A stretch of DNA of 64,000 bases from Bacteroidota bacterium (GTDB lineage Bacteria > Bacteroidota > Bacteroidia > Flavobacteriales > Schleiferiaceae). This document shows positions 1 to 10,368 of this stretch, piece after piece (within the stretch, counting starts at the first letter, position 1; every line of letters starts with the position of its first letter). Both the position numbers and the translations under genes were made by a program. The notes under the pieces are model-generated. The model was not told the DNA's origin. It did no database searches and worked only from the letters and a program-made list of their open reading frames with translations. The stretch covers positions 1 through 64,000 of the forward strand of contig PZPB01000003.1 in the NCBI GenBank assembly GCA_003045865.1, written 5' to 3'.

Positions 1-1
1 A

Positions 2-433
2 TTTAGTAATCTAGGACTGTTGAGTGCAGCCGGCACTTGGATACAAAAGGACCAAAATATTGATGACTTTAATCTTTCGAGCTTACTTAGTTTTACAATG
101 GACAATAGCTCCACAAAGTCCCTCTTCCAGAAAATGGCTAAAATGCAAAAAAGTAAGTCTTTAGCTATGCCATCACCTGCGCCTGCGCCTTCTCAACGGG
201 GAGCTTCAACAGAAGCACCAGTATATGAATTACAAGTTATCAATCAACATAAAGAGCCAATATACTTATACCACAATGGAGTTTACCACAGTAAGGTATA
301 TGCTGGTAAAACGGAGAGCTTAAGACTAAATGGTGGCTGTCAAAGTTTTGAGATAGAAACCAGGCAAGGACCTGTTACTGAACGATCTATTTGCTTTACA
401 GAAGAAAAAAAAGTAAATTGGACCCTAAACTAA
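2..433 (+). CDS. C-terminal part of a protein truncated by the window edge; C-terminal beta-rich domain of unknown family
   Basis: Frame stays open to the left edge (FSNLGLLSAAGTWIQKD...), so the TTG at 20 is probably not the real start; ends 14 nt before the Nif11-leader ORF. Confidence 0.5.
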   Translation, partial: FSNLGLLSAAGTWIQKDQNIDDFNLSSLLSFTMDNSSTKSLFQKMAKMQKSKSLAMPSPAPAPSQRGASTEAPVYELQVINQHKEPIYLYHNGVYHSKVYAGKTESLRLNGGCQSFEIETRQGPVTERSICFTEEKKVNWTLN

Positions 434-447
434 ATTGAACTTATAAT

Positions 448-720
448 ATGGCACTTGAATCAGCACAAAAATGGATCAAGCACATTCATAATGATAATGA
501 GCTTGGCCGCAAACTTTTAGCAATCCCACAAGGGGAATGGAACACTTATGAATCTATTGCTAAAGAGCATGGTTTTGAATTCTCAGAAAATGAACTTAAT
601 GAGGCGTGGGATTTAGAATTTGGCAAAGAAGAACTTAACGAGGCAGAACTAGACCAAATTGTTGGCGGGGTCGCGGGTGGCCCGCGTGGAAGATCTGCCG
701 CAATGGGAGTTAGAGGATGA
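448..720 (+). CDS. Nif11-like leader RiPP precursor peptide (90 aa) with double-glycine site (LDQIVGG) and short core
   Basis: Leader ALESAQKWIKHIHNDNELGRKLL...IAKEHGFEFSENEL...LNEAELDQIVGG fits the Nif11/NHLP leader pattern; NHLM transporters, radical SAM and dioxygenase genes adjacent. Confidence 0.85.
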   Translation: MALESAQKWIKHIHNDNELGRKLLAIPQGEWNTYESIAKEHGFEFSENELNEAWDLEFGKEELNEAELDQIVGGVAGGPRGRSAAMGVRG

Positions 721-741
721 CTCTAATTCTTCTACAAGAAT

Positions 742-769
742 AAAAAGCAAGCTTAAGCTTGCTTTTTTT
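742..769. terminator. Bidirectional intrinsic terminator between convergent precursor and biosynthetic operon
   Basis: Perfect palindrome AAAAAGCAAGCTT/AAGCTTGCTTTTT with A and T tracts on either side. Confidence 0.8.
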
Positions 770-1610
770 ATACCTTAAAAACAGTCCAAAAATCTTCTTT
801 GCCCCATTGATCCTCAGAAGCCATTTGCATAAAAGAGGCGGGCGGCAAACTACGCGACCTCATCGCTGGAAACATCAGTCGCTTATGGGCTTGACGCATA
901 AATTGATAGTAGCTCAGATTACCAGAAAAGGGCAAGTAAGAATGATAGCCCTTAGCTTCATCTGCAATAATCATCTGCGTACACAATACTTCTACATCTA
1001 ACCAAGCTGTGCCATAGTGCTTACTTTCTGGAGTTGAAAAGAACCATAGATTACCTTGCCGTATATCATTATAAAAAGCATAAAAGAGTTGACGCTCCCG
1101 ATCAGCAGAACGTAAATATCCTCCTATAAGTAGCGGAATTCGGTACACCCTTAACTTCATACCCTTATGCCAGCTTATCAAAGAATAAAGCCATTTCTCA
1201 AAATCGAGTTTCATCTTCTCGTACAGATCTTCTGGGGCAGCAATTGTATGCTTATCATAAGGCTCATATTCATGTGAAGCATATACTAAGCTTGTGCTTA
1301 TAAAATGAATCTCCAAGTCTACATTTTGGGCCGCCAGCAATAGTATGCTGGCTTCCAAATTCTGGTAAAAGCTAATCTGATCCTCTTTCTTTGGACTGTT
1401 TGAGCGGGCCAATATAAATACCCTACTTACTTGCTCTGAAATTTCTATCTTAAACTCTCTTAAATCACAAGGCAAAAATGTAAAAGCTCGGTTGAGCTTA
1501 TCATTACTCCTCTTTGACACTAAAAGGGTTTTTCTTGGATCCAGTATTCTACAAAGGTTGATCCCTAGATAGGAGTTGCTGCCAATCACCAAATCAATCA
1601 TATCCTGCAT
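768..1610 (-). CDS. NAD-dependent epimerase/reductase (extended SDR family)
   Basis: N-terminal IDLVIGSNSYLGINL nucleotide-binding motif, FISTSLVYAS, YEKMK (YxxxK); overlaps upstream radical SAM ORF by 17 nt. Confidence 0.7.
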   Translation of the reverse strand: MQDMIDLVIGSNSYLGINLCRILDPRKTLLVSKRSNDKLNRAFTFLPCDLREFKIEISEQVSRVFILARSNSPKKEDQISFYQNLEASILLLAAQNVDLEIHFISTSLVYASHEYEPYDKHTIAAPEDLYEKMKLDFEKWLYSLISWHKGMKLRVYRIPLLIGGYLRSADRERQLFYAFYNDIRQGNLWFFSTPESKHYGTAWLDVEVLCTQMIIADEAKGYHSYLPFSGNLSYYQFMRQAHKRLMFPAMRSRSLPPASFMQMASEDQWGKEDFWTVFKV

Positions 1611-2688
1611 CTAGAATTTGATTCTTTAATTCCTGATATAGACCAGCTTGATGCTTAACGCGATATATAAACCCCCAAGATGAATAGTACAAGGCATGAG
1701 CATCATTGAGCCTGGGGTAGAGATTGGCAAAGTCACTTCGAGTATAGTCTTTTTCCTTTAGGTCTAATTGTATTAACTTATAATTGAAATCACGCTTATC
1801 ATCGATGCTACACCCACGTTCTTGGGCTTCATAGGAGTAGACATTATAGAGATCCTCCTGAGCGCCTGGGTCATATATCTTTTGAATACCATAATCTTGT
1901 CTATTCTCAAAAACTGGGGTATTGCCAAAAAGAGAAAACTGATTAAAGATGAAATCTACTCCATTGTTTAAGTGTGTTAGTTTACGTGCAAAATCCATCA
2001 ATACCTTATCCTCATCTTTAGGTGCTGTTGGGAAATTATAGATCATACTCAAAATAAGGCGAATACCTCTATTGCTAAATTTAAAAATTAAAGTTACGAT
2101 ATGCTTTAGTTCTGATCGCTGTGAAACCTTGACCATATCCATGGCCGTATCTTCCTGAATAGTTTCCAAGCCGAATAAAGCTTCCCTGCAGCCTGCCGAA
2201 TACAAATCCTCAATCAAATCTTCCTTAAAGTTGGCATCCGCTATTAGGCGCATATTCCATAAGAAACCTGCTTTTCTAAATTCTTGATGATTAACTAGGG
2301 TTTTTAAATCCTTTGGGCGTAGAGCTTCATCCATGAACGAGAAATACTTGAGACCATGGCGGTCCCTCAAATACAATAAGTGCGCAATGCTTCTATCCAT
2401 AGCATCTTGCTCCTCAAAGCTTTTTACAGACATATGCTTCCTAATTTGAACACAAAAGCTGCATTTAGAATAATAGCATTGGTTATTGATCAAGGGATAG
2501 TTGTAATGCAGTTTTTCTGGATGCAAATCAAGGTCTTGCCAATAGTCATCTAAAGACTGCCAGTATAGTGGATTTTTGGGTTTAGCCAGCTGAGGAACGT
2601 AAGTGGTCTTATGAATCACATATTCTCCTCCTTTTGGCAGGACCACGTTCTTAAGATTCGATGCTGCCCCCCCCTGAAAGTACGCCAT
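1594..2688 (-). CDS. Radical SAM protein, RiPP-maturation B12-type family, catalytic part
   Basis: NNQCYYSKCSFCVQ cluster motif, FMDEALRP, CREALFGLETIQEDT; located in NHLM operon. Confidence 0.8.
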   Translation of the reverse strand: MAYFQGGAASNLKNVVLPKGGEYVIHKTTYVPQLAKPKNPLYWQSLDDYWQDLDLHPEKLHYNYPLINNQCYYSKCSFCVQIRKHMSVKSFEEQDAMDRSIAHLLYLRDRHGLKYFSFMDEALRPKDLKTLVNHQEFRKAGFLWNMRLIADANFKEDLIEDLYSAGCREALFGLETIQEDTAMDMVKVSQRSELKHIVTLIFKFSNRGIRLILSMIYNFPTAPKDEDKVLMDFARKLTHLNNGVDFIFNQFSLFGNTPVFENRQDYGIQKIYDPGAQEDLYNVYSYEAQERGCSIDDKRDFNYKLIQLDLKEKDYTRSDFANLYPRLNDAHALYYSSWGFIYRVKHQAGLYQELKNQILDAGYD

Positions 2689-2697
2689 TAAACTAAG

Positions 2698-3333
2698 TTA
2701 AGTATCGGCCTTAGCCTCATCATAATAGCTGATGGCATCTATATACTTAAAGAGATCCCCATTGGCCTTTATAGCCTCTAATCGATTGAGTAGGGAGAAG
2801 TTCTCAAAATGATGCCTGCCTATGCATAGCAAAGCCTTAGGATTCTTTTTCTTTAAGCGATATCCCAATAAAATGGCCAAAAAGAGAGAAGTTTCACTCT
2901 CACATCCCAGGCTGATCAGATAATTTTCACGGAACATCTTATCAGTAAGAAGTTGATCAAAATAGCGCACTAAAAGGTGGTCCTCTTTGAGACGGATAGC
3001 CAAGGCATTCAAATCCCCAATACTTAATATATCAGGATTAAGTACTATTCCACTAAGGGCCAGTGTTACCTCATCTATAGCCTCAGATTTTTGTTCTATG
3101 GTCTTGATAAACTTGGTGTATGAAGACATGGCTGAGTCTGCCTTATTTAGTAGGTCATAGGCCAAATCTTCTTCCCCCATTTGCACAAGTACATATTTCC
3201 AAAAATGAGGATTGAGATCTCTTTGCTGATAATGATAAGCTTTCTCTATCAATTGCTGTGCTTCGCGACCTTGGAATGGCCTAACAGCCATTGAAAATGC
3301 TTTGGGAAGCTCTAAATGCAATACACCCTTCAT
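2698..3333 (-). CDS. B12-binding-domain-like protein; probable N-terminal half of the split radical SAM enzyme
   Basis: NYLISLGCESETSLFLAILLGYRLKKKNPKALLCIGRHHFEN...IDAISYYDE resembles the Rossmann-like N-terminal domain of B12-radical SAM proteins; same frame as the downstream ORF. Confidence 0.55.
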   Translation of the reverse strand: MKGVLHLELPKAFSMAVRPFQGREAQQLIEKAYHYQQRDLNPHFWKYVLVQMGEEDLAYDLLNKADSAMSSYTKFIKTIEQKSEAIDEVTLALSGIVLNPDILSIGDLNALAIRLKEDHLLVRYFDQLLTDKMFRENYLISLGCESETSLFLAILLGYRLKKKNPKALLCIGRHHFENFSLLNRLEAIKANGDLFKYIDAISYYDEAKADT

Positions 3334-3336
3334 AAT

Positions 3337-5484
3337 CTATACTAGTTGACGTTTAGCCAATTTATAAAATGCTCCTTGTTTGTTCATCAATTCTTCATAA
3401 CTCCCCTCTTCAAGCTTGCGTCCATCCTCCAGGTAGATGATTTTATCACACTGCATAATAGTAGAAAGCCTATGTGCAATCATTACTCTGCTAATGGACA
3501 ATCCGTCTAGTGTTTTCATTACTTGCCTTTGGGCGATATTATCAAGAGCACTGGTAGACTCATCTAAGAGTAAGATCTGAGGATTAGCAATTAAAGCACG
3601 TGCTATTAAAATCCGCTGCTCCTGTCCTCCAGATAAACTTCCACTACCACTAATCATGGTATGCATTTTCATAGGCATAGCCTCGATGTCCTTATTTACC
3701 GAGGCCATTTCAGCTGCCTGCCAAGCATCATCAATACCTAAATTGGCGGAGCCTACTATATTCTCATAAATGCTTCCTTCAAACAATCGGTCATTTTGCA
3801 AGACTACTCCCAACTGCTGTCGGAAAGCTTTCAAGTTCAATGTGTCTAAATCTAGATCGTCATAAAAAACAGCTCCTTTCTTCAACTCGTAAAAGCCTAG
3901 TAATACTTTTAGAAGGGTAGACTTCCCCGATCCACTAGGTCCTACAATGGCTACACTAGAGCCCTTATCAATAGTAAAACTCACATCTTTGAGTATTTCC
4001 TGCTCTTGATTAGGGTAGGTAAATGATACATGCTGCACTTCTATTTTCCCTTTCAACCCCGTGCTTTTCCCATCTTTACTTAGCTCTGTTGGACTTTGTA
4101 GGGCTTTCTTCAAAAATTCATAGCGCGGTAAGGCTTTCTTTGCCTTAAGGCCGATAAAGCCCAAGGTGGCCAAAGAAATTAGTAAATTAAATGTAGCCGC
4201 ATTAAAGCCCAAAAAGCTACCAAGTGCTAAGTTCCCATCAGTCAAATAATACCAACTGAATAGCATGATTTGCCCAATCCAAGGAATAGCTTCACTAAAA
4301 AATCTAAACCTACTCTCACGTAAAAATAAGAAATAGTCTTTGTTTCTCAGTTGCGCAAAGTAATGACTCCAGAATGAAATTACCTTCCACTCTGCTGCAG
4401 CTTGTTTGATTTTAATGATACCATTAAAAAACTGTATGACCATTGAACCAAGAAAGAGGGCTCTAGAGCGTTGTTTCCGGTCTTCTTGCAAAAGCTTGTG
4501 AAGAACCCAAAGCGATAAACCCAAATAAAGGATGGATAAAACAATTACCATCATCGTCATGGAGGCGTTAAAGCTCAACATAACGATTAAGTTGAAAAGG
4601 CTAAAAAGCATAAGGTGTAAAGCTGAGAATAAGACCGAACTGATAAAATAGATAAAGGATTCAAAATCAATGATGTTATAACTGAGTGAGCCTGAACTCT
4701 CTTCATCAAAAAAGTGGAGTGGTAATTTTAGCACTCTATCTAAAAGTGCGGACTGTAAATAAAATTCGTTCAAATCCTCAAAGCTATAGGAGATGATTTT
4801 CAAACTGTAATTAAATAATACCCTTACTATCACTAAGCATAGCAGTAAAAGAGAAACCTGTTGCAGAAAGAATCGCTCCGCCGATGGCAAGACCCAATTA
4901 AACAGAGCACTAATACCATAAGGGAAGACGGACGCTATACCTGAAACCAAAAGGCTCATCAATAGTATTCCTATCACCTTGCTTCTATTGTGCTTAATGA
5001 TAAAGGCCAATAAGTAGCGCTTGCTGATCTTTCGATCCGCCAAGAGCGGCAACACCTGAAAGGCTTTCATATTAGCTTGAGCAAAGGCATCTGTGGAATA
5101 GCGCACTTCTTCTCCCTTCTCATTGAGCAGTACTATACTATTGCCCTTCTTAGACTGCAACAAATAGGCCTGTGAATCCTTATCAACCAGTAATAGCTCT
5201 CCTGGCATACGTCTGTACCAGTCTCCCTTGAGCTTAACCTCCCTATGAGCAATATTATAGCTGAGCTCAAATTCCTTTAAATTCTCAGCGATACTTCCCT
5301 TTAATAACGGCTGCTGTGCTCTAACTCTATCTAGGTACAAACGCCTAGCAATGACTTTATATAGGTCTTCCCAAGGGTGGCGTTCTGAAGAGAAACCCGC
5401 CTCCTCTTCCCGCACTACCGCTCCGAGCGCCTGGGTGCTTCTCCTTTTGAATATCTCTTCCTTTGTCCTTTCTGTTTTAGCCAT
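3337..5484 (-). CDS. NHLM bacteriocin system ABC transporter, permease/ATP-binding protein (second transporter, no C39 domain)
   Basis: ABC membrane domain plus Walker A GPSGSGKST, LSGGQEQR signature, Walker B ILLLDEST; about 150-aa non-peptidase N-terminal domain. Confidence 0.85.
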   Translation of the reverse strand: MAKTERTKEEIFKRRSTQALGAVVREEEAGFSSERHPWEDLYKVIARRLYLDRVRAQQPLLKGSIAENLKEFELSYNIAHREVKLKGDWYRRMPGELLLVDKDSQAYLLQSKKGNSIVLLNEKGEEVRYSTDAFAQANMKAFQVLPLLADRKISKRYLLAFIIKHNRSKVIGILLMSLLVSGIASVFPYGISALFNWVLPSAERFFLQQVSLLLLCLVIVRVLFNYSLKIISYSFEDLNEFYLQSALLDRVLKLPLHFFDEESSGSLSYNIIDFESFIYFISSVLFSALHLMLFSLFNLIVMLSFNASMTMMVIVLSILYLGLSLWVLHKLLQEDRKQRSRALFLGSMVIQFFNGIIKIKQAAAEWKVISFWSHYFAQLRNKDYFLFLRESRFRFFSEAIPWIGQIMLFSWYYLTDGNLALGSFLGFNAATFNLLISLATLGFIGLKAKKALPRYEFLKKALQSPTELSKDGKSTGLKGKIEVQHVSFTYPNQEQEILKDVSFTIDKGSSVAIVGPSGSGKSTLLKVLLGFYELKKGAVFYDDLDLDTLNLKAFRQQLGVVLQNDRLFEGSIYENIVGSANLGIDDAWQAAEMASVNKDIEAMPMKMHTMISGSGSLSGGQEQRILIARALIANPQILLLDESTSALDNIAQRQVMKTLDGLSISRVMIAHRLSTIMQCDKIIYLEDGRKLEEGSYEELMNKQGAFYKLAKRQLV

Positions 5485-7618
5485 CAGAAGAAATTAGATT
5501 AGTATATAACGACCCTTTAGCCATCAGCTCTTGATGACTGCCAACCTCTATGATCTCTCCTTTGTCTAAGACATAGATGCGGTCCACGTCCCTTATTGTG
5601 CTGAGGCGATGCGCTATGAGTATTGTCGTACATTTTAAGTCCTGAACTTTTTCACTAACCACTTGCTCCGTGATAGGGTCTAAAGCGCTTGTAGCCTCAT
5701 CCATAATGAGCAGATGCGGCTGAAGTAATAAAGCTCTGGCAATTTCTAATCGTTGCTTTTGCCCTCCGCTGAGGTTTCTACCGTCTTCCTTTAGCACAAA
5801 GTCAAAACCGTTTTCTAAGGACATGATATGGTCATAAATATCGGCTACTTGACAAGCCCTAGCTAATTCTTCATCACTTACGGAGTCATCCCAAAAACTA
5901 AGAATGTCCCTAATTCTGCCCTCAAACATAAAAGGATATTGATCTACTACGGCAATAGACCTATTATAAGAGTTCTTATCCAGTGCATTCAATGGCTTGC
6001 CATTGATAAAAACATCTCCCCCCTCTGCCTCATAAAGACCGGCAATAATTCTCGCCAAGCTTGACTTTCCAGAACCTGAGCCTCCAACAAAAGCTACCCT
6101 TTCACCAGGGGCAATGGCCAGATTGAGGTCCTTGAAGAATAAATCAGCATTCTTACTAAACCTAAAATTCAAGCCCTCGATCTTTACTTCAAGCCCTTCA
6201 TCTTCTTCTGTGGATAAGCCTTCTCCAGAAGTATCGGGCTGCTCAGAATCTAACACCTCATTTACCTTAGTGAGACTACCTGAAAGATCATTAGACGTAT
6301 TGACCGTATCGACCAAGCGCTCCAAAGGTTGAAAGAAGAACTGTATGAATACCGTAAAGGCAATTAGGCTACCTAGCTCTAAATCACCATTCATCACCAT
6401 TATACCTCCCCAGAACAGGATCAAGGTATAATTTAACAGATACAATAAGTCTGGCATTACATCGATAATACTTTGCAGTACCTTATGATTCTGTTTTATA
6501 TTGATAACTCTAGCTTTTATTCCAGTCCATTTCTGAAAAAGATCATCTTCCTTTCCATTCGCCTTTAAGCTTTGCACCCCTTGAATACCTTTGATTGTAG
6601 TAGAGATCAATTTACCTTCATCCACACTTAATATCTGACTAAGTTCTGCCTTCTTTCGTGAAAGAAGTTGCAAGACCACCATATTGATAATGGCTGAGAA
6701 TAGTACCATTAGGGCTAAAGAGCTATTTAAAAAGAAAAGGATGAGCAAGAAGAAGAACAAGCTAATCATATTCACCCCTACAAATATGAGATCCTGAATC
6801 AGGAACTTGCTAATTTTACGGATATGACCCATACGTGCTGCTAATTCATCAGCACTTCTATTCAAGAAAAACCGGGCGTGTAAACCCATCAGTTTTTGAA
6901 TATACTGAAAGGACAATAATGTATGAGCACGCACGTAGAGCCGGCTCAGAATACTGGCTTGTAAGGCTTGAATAATAATCTTAATCAGTAGGGTTGCCAT
7001 CATCACCAAGACTAAGGGCACTAGCCAAGATTGGAAATTATTGACAACAATCTGATCTACAAATATTTTGGAGTAGAGTGGGAGAATGGCGATAGGAACC
7101 ATGGCTATTAAACCAAGACCTAAAATTAACCATTGAGAAGCCCCTGTTTTTTGATACAAAAAAAAAATAGATCGATAGGGCGAAAAAGGCTTGCCTTGCT
7201 TCTCAAAGTTTTCTGATATACTAAAACTTAAAACAACTCCCGTATAAGATTCATCAAACTCATCTCGCCCTACCTTTCGGCGACCTAAGGCTGGATCATT
7301 TAAAAAGAAGAATTTGTCATTAGACCCCTCTAAAACTAAAAAGTGATTGAAGTTCCAAAAAATTATGACTGGCCTATCAAGAGATTCTAATTCCTTAATC
7401 CCACAACGCTCTGCCTTATAATTAAGGCCATATTCCTTAGCCGCCTTAATTATAGAACTAGCCTTTGAGCCATCTCTAGAAACACCGCATGCCTTCCTGA
7501 GATCTTCTAGCCGTTCATGCCTGCCGTAATAACCCAATATCATCCCAAGAGAGGCAGCACCACATTCCGTGACCTCCATCTGCAAAAACGCTGGTGTTTT
7601 GAACCTCCTATTCCGCAT
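5477..7618 (-). CDS. NHLM bacteriocin system ABC transporter, C39 peptidase/permease/ATP-binding protein
   Basis: C39 motif QMEVTECGAASLGMILGYYGR, FNHFLVLEG...FLNDPALGRRKV; Walker A GGSGSGKSS, LSGGQKQR; probable start MRNRRFKTPAF at 7618 (longer ORF to 7657). Confidence 0.9.
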   Translation of the reverse strand: MRNRRFKTPAFLQMEVTECGAASLGMILGYYGRHERLEDLRKACGVSRDGSKASSIIKAAKEYGLNYKAERCGIKELESLDRPVIIFWNFNHFLVLEGSNDKFFFLNDPALGRRKVGRDEFDESYTGVVLSFSISENFEKQGKPFSPYRSIFFLYQKTGASQWLILGLGLIAMVPIAILPLYSKIFVDQIVVNNFQSWLVPLVLVMMATLLIKIIIQALQASILSRLYVRAHTLLSFQYIQKLMGLHARFFLNRSADELAARMGHIRKISKFLIQDLIFVGVNMISLFFFLLILFFLNSSLALMVLFSAIINMVVLQLLSRKKAELSQILSVDEGKLISTTIKGIQGVQSLKANGKEDDLFQKWTGIKARVINIKQNHKVLQSIIDVMPDLLYLLNYTLILFWGGIMVMNGDLELGSLIAFTVFIQFFFQPLERLVDTVNTSNDLSGSLTKVNEVLDSEQPDTSGEGLSTEEDEGLEVKIEGLNFRFSKNADLFFKDLNLAIAPGERVAFVGGSGSGKSSLARIIAGLYEAEGGDVFINGKPLNALDKNSYNRSIAVVDQYPFMFEGRIRDILSFWDDSVSDEELARACQVADIYDHIMSLENGFDFVLKEDGRNLSGGQKQRLEIARALLLQPHLLIMDEATSALDPITEQVVSEKVQDLKCTTILIAHRLSTIRDVDRIYVLDKGEIIEVGSHQELMAKGSLYTNLISSDG

Positions 7619-8795
7619 TGATGAAAGGGAATAAAAGATTAATAGGCGCTTTTTCATCTATGAGCACACGAGCCTCAGCTAGTGAACCCGCCAATATCTT
7701 GGCATTGGGACCTGTGCCTGCTGACCATTTTAAGCCCGAAAAGTTTGTGCTGTCTTGCAAAAGATTGACTGAAAAATAGGCGGGCAAGTTGCTTGAACTA
7801 AGTTCTTCTACCAGTTCATCATTTCTCAGGATCCGGTAAAGACCTTCCCTAGTAGCAGGATACTTTGATACCTTATCTACCTCACCAATAATATAACCGT
7901 ACTCTTCTTTAGAAAACGTACTAGTACTGATATAGACCTTCATTCCGCTCTGGAGCTTTTTGGTAAGCTTTGCGTCTACAAAGAATTTGGCCTCTAATAG
8001 GCCTTGCTGATCATCATAGTTCTCTACTGTCATTAAGTTTGTTGCCGGATCAAAAATGTCGCCATCATCTAGTGATACTTCTACGATCATTCCATTGTAT
8101 GGGCTTTCTATCTGACTCTTAAAACGCAATTCACTGCGCTTCTGGTTGAGGGTGTTTTGTAGCGCCTCCATCTCTTTCTTAGCCTCTAGAAAATCGTTGA
8201 GCTCAAAATTCTTGGCCTCTACATAGGCAAGGTTTAGCTTTTGATAGCGATAATCCAATGAGGATTGATAAGAAGCTAAGCGTGTACGATCAAAATTAGT
8301 GCTGGCCTTTCCAATCTGCGTTTTAATGAGTTTTAGGCTATCCTTGATAGAGCTGATACTAGCTTTTAGATTTGCCTCCCTTTGCCTTTTTAGTTGAGGA
8401 TCTACCAACTTGCCAAAACGATTTAGTCTTTTCTCATACATGCGATAATCGGCTTCTAGCTTACGTACCTCAAATTGAAGATCTATTTGCTCGGCTGTTG
8501 CTAAAAGTTGCCCCTTGTGAATGGTATCTCCTAGATTTACCGCCAGAGTATCAATAGTTCCGCCGAATGGAATCTTTACCTGCCTTAAGCCCTTCTCTTG
8601 AATTAAGATTCCCGAGCCATCTACAAAAATGGGTAAAGAGCCTCTAAATCCCCATAGCAGAAAGAATACTAGCATTAATGAAAGACCAATGAATACTGCA
8701 ATATGCCTGGGCCTAACCACCTTTAAGCTTTGGCTAATATCCTCTGGCGAGCTGATTTTTTTTAGGGCCTTTTGGCGAAAACTAACATCCCCCAT
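7608..8795 (-). CDS. HlyD-family/NHLM secretion adaptor protein
   Basis: One TM segment then biotinyl-lipoyl-like VNLGDTIHKGQLLA, coiled coil, SPYNGMIVEVSLDDGDIFDP; start at MGDVSFRQ. Confidence 0.85.
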   Translation of the reverse strand: MGDVSFRQKALKKISSPEDISQSLKVVRPRHIAVFIGLSLMLVFFLLWGFRGSLPIFVDGSGILIQEKGLRQVKIPFGGTIDTLAVNLGDTIHKGQLLATAEQIDLQFEVRKLEADYRMYEKRLNRFGKLVDPQLKRQREANLKASISSIKDSLKLIKTQIGKASTNFDRTRLASYQSSLDYRYQKLNLAYVEAKNFELNDFLEAKKEMEALQNTLNQKRSELRFKSQIESPYNGMIVEVSLDDGDIFDPATNLMTVENYDDQQGLLEAKFFVDAKLTKKLQSGMKVYISTSTFSKEEYGYIIGEVDKVSKYPATREGLYRILRNDELVEELSSSNLPAYFSVNLLQDSTNFSGLKWSAGTGPNAKILAGSLAEARVLIDEKAPINLLFPFINAE

Positions 8796-8805
8796 CTTAT
8801 TTAGT

Positions 8806-9543
8806 TTACTTAAGTTTAAATTTATCGTGCAAGAAGTAATCTTGAGCCATTTTCCTTTGATAACCACAACGTTTGGGGTTAAAAAATAAAAACAGGGCCT
8901 TTCTAGAACTACTCGAAGTATTCACCGCCGACCCATGCGGGCAATAGCCATCAAAGAAAAGTGCATCTCCAGCAGCTAATTCAATAGGCTCAAAATTTAA
9001 ACTATCAACAATCTCTTTTTCCAGTACGCCGCCTTCAGGCCCAAGCCCACCTTGCTTGTGGATTCCTGCAGCTACTTGCATACAGCCATTCTCTATAGTA
9101 TGCTCATCTACCGCTAAACACATAGTAACCAACTTATCAATAGGTACACTTGGAGCGTATCTCTCATTGACCCACTGGATCACTGGGCTCTGCATATCCT
9201 GATGAGGATCATAGGCACCACCCCCAGGCTCTTTAAAATGGAAATCTTCAATGAATAGATGGGCTGGTTCTTTAAGTAAGCTCTCTAAATGCACTTGTAG
9301 CTTTTGGCTTTCTAAGAAACTCTTCATAAAGCCTATCCTTTCTGCAAAATCAAGCGCTTGAAAAAGCAGCTTCCCCTCTTTGCCGGCAGACATTTCAGGC
9401 ACACAATAGTCTGGGTACAGTTTACAGTATTGTAACATACTAGCCCTTAGCTGTGACATCTCTCCCCTTGTGTAAAATTGACGCACTACCACAAAGCCCT
9501 TTTCTTGATAGGACGCCTGCAGTGCTGCTAAGTTTTCTAACAT
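8806..9543 (-). CDS. Phytanoyl-CoA dioxygenase (PhyH) family Fe(II)/2-oxoglutarate oxygenase
   Basis: HQD metal motif (DPHQDMQSP), distal His YCPHGSAVNTSSSSRKALFLFF. Confidence 0.85.
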   Translation of the reverse strand: MLENLAALQASYQEKGFVVVRQFYTRGEMSQLRASMLQYCKLYPDYCVPEMSAGKEGKLLFQALDFAERIGFMKSFLESQKLQVHLESLLKEPAHLFIEDFHFKEPGGGAYDPHQDMQSPVIQWVNERYAPSVPIDKLVTMCLAVDEHTIENGCMQVAAGIHKQGGLGPEGGVLEKEIVDSLNFEPIELAAGDALFFDGYCPHGSAVNTSSSSRKALFLFFNPKRCGYQRKMAQDYFLHDKFKLK

Positions 9544-10124
9544 ATAGTTTAGTTGAAGTCTAAAAATAAGAAAAAGATTAGACTAGCAGAGGTATGGGAG
9601 GAGTGGTTTTTGGCTTCTTTTTTAGAAAAGTTTAAAACGTAGGAAAAAGTCATGATTTAGTCATCATTTTCTAAAGAAGTGTGCTTCTAAAGGTCCAGCA
9701 AACCGAAATTAGGCCTTCATCCTTTTCCATTAATATTAACACAGACAATTCCCAACAGCTAAAGCACATCTTAAAATTTTTGGGGATTTTTACGACAAGG
9801 TATCTTAAGGTATTGCCCTTAGTCTTTTAATGGGCTAAATATCGTCTATCCGAAAGATGCTATAGCATTGCTTTATAACTCATTTCGCCCTGATAAAGAT
9901 TTATTTTTTTATTCGGTAATGGGAGAAAAATGTCTAAAAATAGCTGGGTTTGATTTCAAGCTGAATGAGGGCAATACAGAGCCCAAGCTAGCTGTCAGGC
10001 TTTGTCATTTTAAAGATCGCGCCCGAAAAGTCAGCTAGGAATGTTAATTCAACACAAAGTTAGTGCTTGATAGGCTGTACCCATGTGCGACTTATTAGCA
10101 ATTGACTAACCACTTACAAACCAA

Positions 10125-10160
10125 AAAACCCTTGCTAATCTATTGACTAACAAGGGTTTT
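10125..10160 (-). terminator. Terminator-like hairpin downstream of tRNA-Leu
   Basis: AAAACCCTTG ... CAAGGGTTTT inverted repeat, T-rich on minus strand. Confidence 0.65.
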
Positions 10161-10173
10161 GATTTTGTGATTG

Positions 10174-10258
10174 TGCCCCAGGCGGGACTTGAACCCGCAC
10201 GACCGCAATGGTCACGGGATTTTAAGTCCCGCGTGTCTACCAATTCCACCACCAGGGC
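10174..10258 (-). tRNA. tRNA-Leu (anticodon UAA)
   Basis: GCCCTGGTGGTGGAATTGGTAGACACGCGGGACTTAAAATCCCGTG...GGTTCAAGTCCCGCCTGGGGCA; long variable arm; CCA not encoded. Confidence 0.95.
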
Positions 10259-10268
10259 GAACCTAAAT

Positions 10269-10294
10269 AAAAACCCCTCGTAAGAGGGGTTTTT
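10269..10294 (-). terminator. Perfect hairpin between two tRNA genes
   Basis: AAAAACCCCTC-GTAA-GAGGGGTTTTT. Confidence 0.7.
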
Positions 10295-10295
10295 G

Positions 10296-10368
<73 letters not shown>

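Follow-up and report, generated by a model that had tools for sequence, protein, structure and literature searches.

What does a lone TAA codon signify when it parts two open reading frames (ORFs) that would otherwise read as one radical SAM (rSAM) enzyme: a boundary between two genes, an enzyme made as two chains or a gene that has been broken? The question arises near one end of a contig from a member of the Schleiferiaceae (Bacteroidota), where a 211-aa ORF and a 364-aa ORF lie in the same frame on the minus strand. The stretch of DNA analysed here (the window; positions 1 to 64,000 of contig PZPB01000003.1) is the start of a 78,437-bp contig in a draft genome of 3.05 Mb (169 contigs, 89.9% complete), and the genome-wide statistics given below refer to 333 kb of contigs sampled from the same genome. 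The features of the locus are listed in Table 1.

Table 1 Features of the interrupted radical SAM gene and its surroundings (window coordinates).
Feature	Position	Strand	Supporting match or alignment
Nif11-leader RiPP precursor, 90 aa; leader end ...LDQIVGG, core VAGGPRGRSAAMGVRG	448..720	+	TIGR03798, 48 bits (cut-off 32.3)
NAD-dependent epimerase-like (SDR) gene; overlaps the rSAM 3′ end; rSAM partner in Microcoleus too	768..1610	-	
Interrupted gene, 3′ part (364-aa ORF): Rossmann last helix and predicted beta-hairpin, followed by the radical SAM core (CX4CX2C) and a C-terminal part	1594..2688	-	
Eight consecutive G, 14-21 nt beyond the A of the second ATG	2667..2674	-	Frame kept on either side
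9 nt between TAA and next ATG, codons LSL	2689..2697	-	In register with fused homologues
In-frame TAA	2698..2700	-	Aligned after the last Rossmann strand, at the start of the last helix, about OxsB residue 245
Interrupted gene, 5′ part (211-aa ORF): N-terminal Rossmann domain of the cobalamin-binding type	2698..3333	-	26% orthologue match; hhalign 96.2%
NHLM-type export ABC subunit 2	3337..5484	-	
NHLM-type export ABC subunit 1 with C39 leader peptidase	5477..7657	-	
NHLM HlyD secretion protein	7608..8867	-	TIGR03794, 246 bits (cut-off 156)
PhyH-type Fe(II)/2OG oxygenase	8806..9543	-	
tRNA-Leu and tRNA-Gly, island edge	10173..10368	-	

On the minus strand the junction reads GCC GAT ACT TAA CTT AGT TTA ATG GCG TAC TTT CAG GGG GGG GCA (ADT*LSLMAYFQGGA), which confirms base by base the in-frame TAA, and the same-frame radical SAM ORF 9 nt further on, that an earlier sequence-only reading of the locus had described. 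The 211-aa ORF ends with the TAA itself (2700-2698), the 364-aa ORF begins at the ATG at 2688, and the TAA is the sole lesion across 1.74 kb, both pieces being otherwise open. Because the remaining two frames are likewise closed by stops near the junction, no single frameshift can join the two ORFs; they are joinable solely by a changed stop codon or by its in-frame loss. The earlier claim that only a substitution, and not an indel, would fuse them thus holds as far as frameshifts are concerned, but an in-frame deletion of the stop would join the ORFs as well. A frameshift as the cause of the split was rejected on two grounds: stops close every frame at the junction, and homologues align in register on either side of the nearby G8 run. 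This run is the only G or C run of at least eight in the 333 kb sampled, where about two are expected from base composition alone. Given that the frame is correct on both sides of it in the alignment, the run is not what caused the split; the second ORF could be liable to slippage there, possibly as an on/off switch of the rSAM frame.

Adjacency in the same frame is ordinary in this genome. The 333 kb sampled contain 17 pairs of coding-like ORFs (at least 100 aa each) that are parted by one in-frame stop, the present pair included, and among the 44 adjoining ORF pairs that lie 0-30 nt apart, 17 share a frame. The case for one gene therefore rests on homology, and the element that chance does not account for is that both pieces correspond to parts of a single protein in relatives. 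The search for homologues covered three sets of genomes, drawn from the phylum (396), the order (398) and the class (395). No close relative of either ORF was found among 149 related genomes, and more distant homologues (about 18-33% identical) are encoded in 64 other Bacteroidota genomes, all 64 of them uninterrupted, with open frames of 545-801 aa. The orthologue is an uninterrupted 567-aa ORF on plasmid CP146623.1 of Microcoleus vaginatus PCC 9802 (L032:8290-9993). It aligns end to end with the readthrough protein at 30% identity, from the 211-aa part across the three codons between the ORFs and on through the 364-aa part; taken separately, the 211-aa protein matches its residues 3-208 (26%, E = 2e-13) and the 364-aa protein matches it at 32% over 89% of the length of the latter. 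The Microcoleus rSAM gene is followed, with a four-base overlap at its stop, by a homologue (31%) of the window's epimerase-like gene, and in the plasmid collection the rSAM and epimerase-like proteins each have their sole long match on CP146623.1. The two genes form orthologous pairs in the window and in Microcoleus, where the enzyme is a single chain.

Profile comparisons point the same way. A profile made from fused homologues only, without this protein and its orthologue, aligns with the readthrough protein in register and without a break across the stop (97 bits, E = 4.6e-32). When the 211-aa part, as a two-sequence profile, was compared with the N-terminal region of fused homologues by hhalign, the probability was 96.2% (score 51.1), against no more than 11.5 (0.9%) for any of 97 column-shuffled decoys. 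The fused orthologue, this profile-profile match and the unbroken alignment bear out the proposal that the 211-aa part resembles the N-terminal domain that precedes the radical SAM domain; a homology test of that identity, named beforehand as the one able to overturn it, came out in its favour. Comparison of fused with split forms, also proposed in advance, gave fused genes throughout, and no shared split form was found among the 64 Bacteroidota homologues or in the Microcoleus orthologue. Scans of genome contigs and viral contigs returned no relatives, an absence that means little given the poor short peptide patterns used, and a PDB sequence search with the single proteins returned chance hits only. 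Two unrelated neighbouring genes are ruled out by the fused orthologue. As judged from these alignments, the gene was almost certainly single in its ancestry and, if the consensus is right, is now interrupted.

The multiple alignment also locates the cut in the protein. The stop codon falls at a hydrophobic helix position directly after the strand/loop DAISYYDEAKADT, the LSL codons between stop and ATG carry the helix on in register, and LKNVVLPKGGEYVIHK matches the predicted hairpin that leads to the radical SAM core. A PDB search with the multiple alignment as query found OxsB (residues 163-495) and TsrM, and the position of the stop corresponds to about OxsB residue 245 in the family-profile alignment. 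The cobalamin domain of class 1 enzymes is described as a five-stranded Rossmann fold whose strand 5 is followed by a beta-hairpin (PMC13331322), so the first piece would keep strands 1-5 and the second would gain the last helix together with the hairpin. The TAA is accordingly mapped by alignment to a site inside the Rossmann domain, not at a domain border. Single-sequence AlphaFold models had a mean pLDDT of 38 for the readthrough protein and 42 for the 211-aa part.

How far the enzyme can be called cobalamin-type depends on the feature considered. Its N-terminal Rossmann domain is homologous to the cobalamin-binding domain (hhalign 96.2%; the family profile reaches OxsB), and the three-cysteine iron-sulphur motif is present as CYYSKCSFC, with the CX4CX2C spacing of the homologues and OxsB. 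Class 1 enzymes have both domains in one chain, an arrangement that the TAA at 2700-2698 disrupts here. The fused (readthrough) protein has no match to the Pfam B12-binding family, and the GG(G) that follows Rossmann strand 4 in relatives is aligned with GRHHFEN here and GKHNYEN in Microcoleus. The label 'B12-type' given by the sequence-only reading is thus upheld as regards Rossmann-domain homology but not by a Pfam match or by the GG(G) motif, and we use it to denote homology only: the enzyme is, by homology, of the cobalamin type. In place of GG(G), the window and Microcoleus proteins share the motif IG(R/K)HxxENFSL (minus strand, 2791-2823; residues 171-181 of the fused frame), where cofactor binding may differ. 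In OxsB, Asn186 is the position under the cobalt (PMC13331322); it aligns, tentatively, with Glu145 (E145) here and with Asp in Microcoleus.

The interrupted gene is part of a RiPP cluster with an operon-like order: PhyH oxygenase, HlyD, ABC subunit 1 with the C39 peptidase, ABC subunit 2, the rSAM gene and the epimerase-like SDR gene, with the precursor on the opposite strand. The precursor is of the Nif11 type with a GG leader and the HlyD protein exceeds the NHLM cut-off, as in Nif11-leader/NHLP systems; the NHLM ABC1 and ABC2 models are full-length best matches yet score under their cut-offs (787 versus 853 and 572 versus 709 bits, respectively). None of the adjacent enzyme and export genes is truncated. 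The listed start of ABC subunit 1 overlaps the HlyD gene by 50 nt and has a poor upstream context, and an in-frame ATG at about 7618 is the likelier start. A 143-aa ORF (2-433) with no family match, cut by the contig start, ends 14 nt before the Nif11 precursor and is probably co-transcribed with it. The mutS-tRNA-Gly-tRNA-Leu context is kept in five congeners, and the island genes are absent there in all five; the codon usage of the island genes falls in the lowest 1-14% of this genome. Together, the empty tRNA-flanked site and the atypical codon usage suggest that the island (window 1-10170) was recently acquired at the tRNA, and it is likely to continue past the contig end.

Precursor cores offer a hint about the substrate. 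Just before the Microcoleus rSAM gene lies a 57-aa ORF (L032:7917-8090) with a double-glycine leader that is not of the Nif11 type and the core KGGRGGRGTTLPVAIVVVPLK. The Microcoleus fused rSAM and SDR genes together occupy L032:8290-10850, and the core start there, KGGRGGRG..., resembles VAGGPRGRS... in the window. Both cores begin with Gly/Arg-rich stretches, which suggests that the rSAM-SDR pair probably acts on, and modifies, such cores. An rSAM enzyme, an SDR and a peptide with a Gly/Arg-rich core would constitute a candidate rare RiPP class.

The evidence does not separate the four origins of the split that had been offered at the outset (a two-polypeptide enzyme, readthrough, a nonsense mutation or a base-call error). 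We rank first, with about an even chance of being right, a nonsense mutation that arose recently while the rest of the cluster stayed intact, on the strength of the single lesion, the inter-ORF codons that are still homologous, the site within a domain and the lack of a split relative. On this reading, a gene ancestrally in one piece, which encoded the divergent cobalamin-type radical SAM enzyme of the RiPP cluster, would have been broken by one in-frame TAA that arose recently in this population; the ribosome would then yield a 211-aa fragment without the last helix and hairpin of its domain, re-initiation at the ATG 9 nt downstream may yield the radical SAM part, and the full enzyme would be lost or much reduced, with the export genes and the precursor gene intact. 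The chief counter-evidence is that very ATG: only 7-8% of random codon positions are followed by one so closely (within four codons), and the A/T-rich, start-like context upstream of this ATG ranks at the 47th percentile among real starts and at the 94th among internal ATGs. For the same reason we retain, as less likely, a genuine two-polypeptide enzyme, in which the stop is fixed, termination-reinitiation occurs at ATG 2688 and the chains assemble, the last helix and hairpin being supplied in trans. Both pieces are open with key residues intact (CX4CX2C), and the cut falls between a strand and a helix, a kind of site at which splitting is sometimes tolerated in proteins; but it lies within the domain and not at its border, the three codons from stop to ATG still align with homologues as they would in a young lesion, and neither the 64 homologues nor the orthologue is split. 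Since the searches yielded a single true orthologue, they could have overlooked a lineage in which the split form is stable; a targeted literature search found no report of a split cobalamin-type rSAM enzyme. The more specific proposal of a natural two-chain enzyme with its Rossmann domain divided between chains made by termination-reinitiation, working with the epimerase-like SDR on a Gly/Arg-rich core in a rare RiPP class, is doubtful.

A consensus or assembly error at one base of 2698-2700, with the gene intact in the organism, is unlikely. It keeps its weight because the draft genome is fragmented (169 contigs) and about 90% complete; the gene is also otherwise undamaged, the cluster is intact and the run of eight G is nearby. 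Set against this, only a substitution fits, consensus substitutions are rare and the frame is kept on both sides of the G run. Moreover, no Pfam domain extends across the stop in any of the other 16 same-frame pairs (one of which has no Pfam match at all), so the assembly is not full of such errors. Those pairs likewise give no sign of TAA reassignment, which counts against the least likely explanation, that stop-codon readthrough (or a reassigned TAA) yields the full-length enzyme at a low level. The frame is indeed continuous across the stop, but TAA is the least leaky of the stops in bacteria and no recoding RNA structure was found around it, the predicted folding being no better than that of shuffles (z = 0.46); we consider readthrough very improbable.

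Each outcome would have its own interest. If the split works, it would show a cobalamin-type radical SAM enzyme naturally divided within its cofactor domain, which would help to understand and engineer proteins of a type that is hard to express. If the stop is a nonsense mutation, the locus documents the shutdown of a RiPP pathway whose export genes are still intact. In both cases, a rare rSAM and SDR pair is common to a bacteroidete island and a cyanobacterial plasmid, near precursors with similar Gly/Arg-rich cores.

Among known systems, the Microcoleus cluster is the most direct comparison: it too has an rSAM gene followed by the epimerase-like gene, together with HlyD, a C39-ABC exporter and a double-glycine-leader peptide, and its rSAM protein shares the motifs IG(R/K)HxxENFSL and CY(Y/W)xKC(S/T)FCVQIxKH with that of the window. 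It differs in that its rSAM gene is uninterrupted, its leader is not of the Nif11 type and no ABC2 or PhyH gene is seen adjoining. RiPP maturation radical SAM C-methyltransferases (TIGR03975, rSAM_ocin_1) are alike in their RiPP cluster, their N-terminal Rossmann domain followed by radical SAM and a partial profile match; however, the window gene is interrupted and falls far under the cut-off of 281.85 (the 364-aa ORF scores 42 bits and the readthrough protein 40.8). The profile of the PhpK family of P-methyltransferases (TIGR04479) spans the Rossmann domain into the rSAM core of the readthrough protein, at 38.8 bits (34.3 for the 364-aa ORF) against a cut-off of 600, but no phosphonate pathway is seen. 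For the class 1 enzymes of known structure, OxsB and TsrM, the family profile aligns with OxsB 163-495 through the Rossmann domain, the hairpin and the rSAM core. The lower cobalt face would here carry, on a tentative alignment, the acidic E145 rather than N/R/W; and whereas OxsB and TsrM are single chains, the window gene is cut before the last Rossmann helix.
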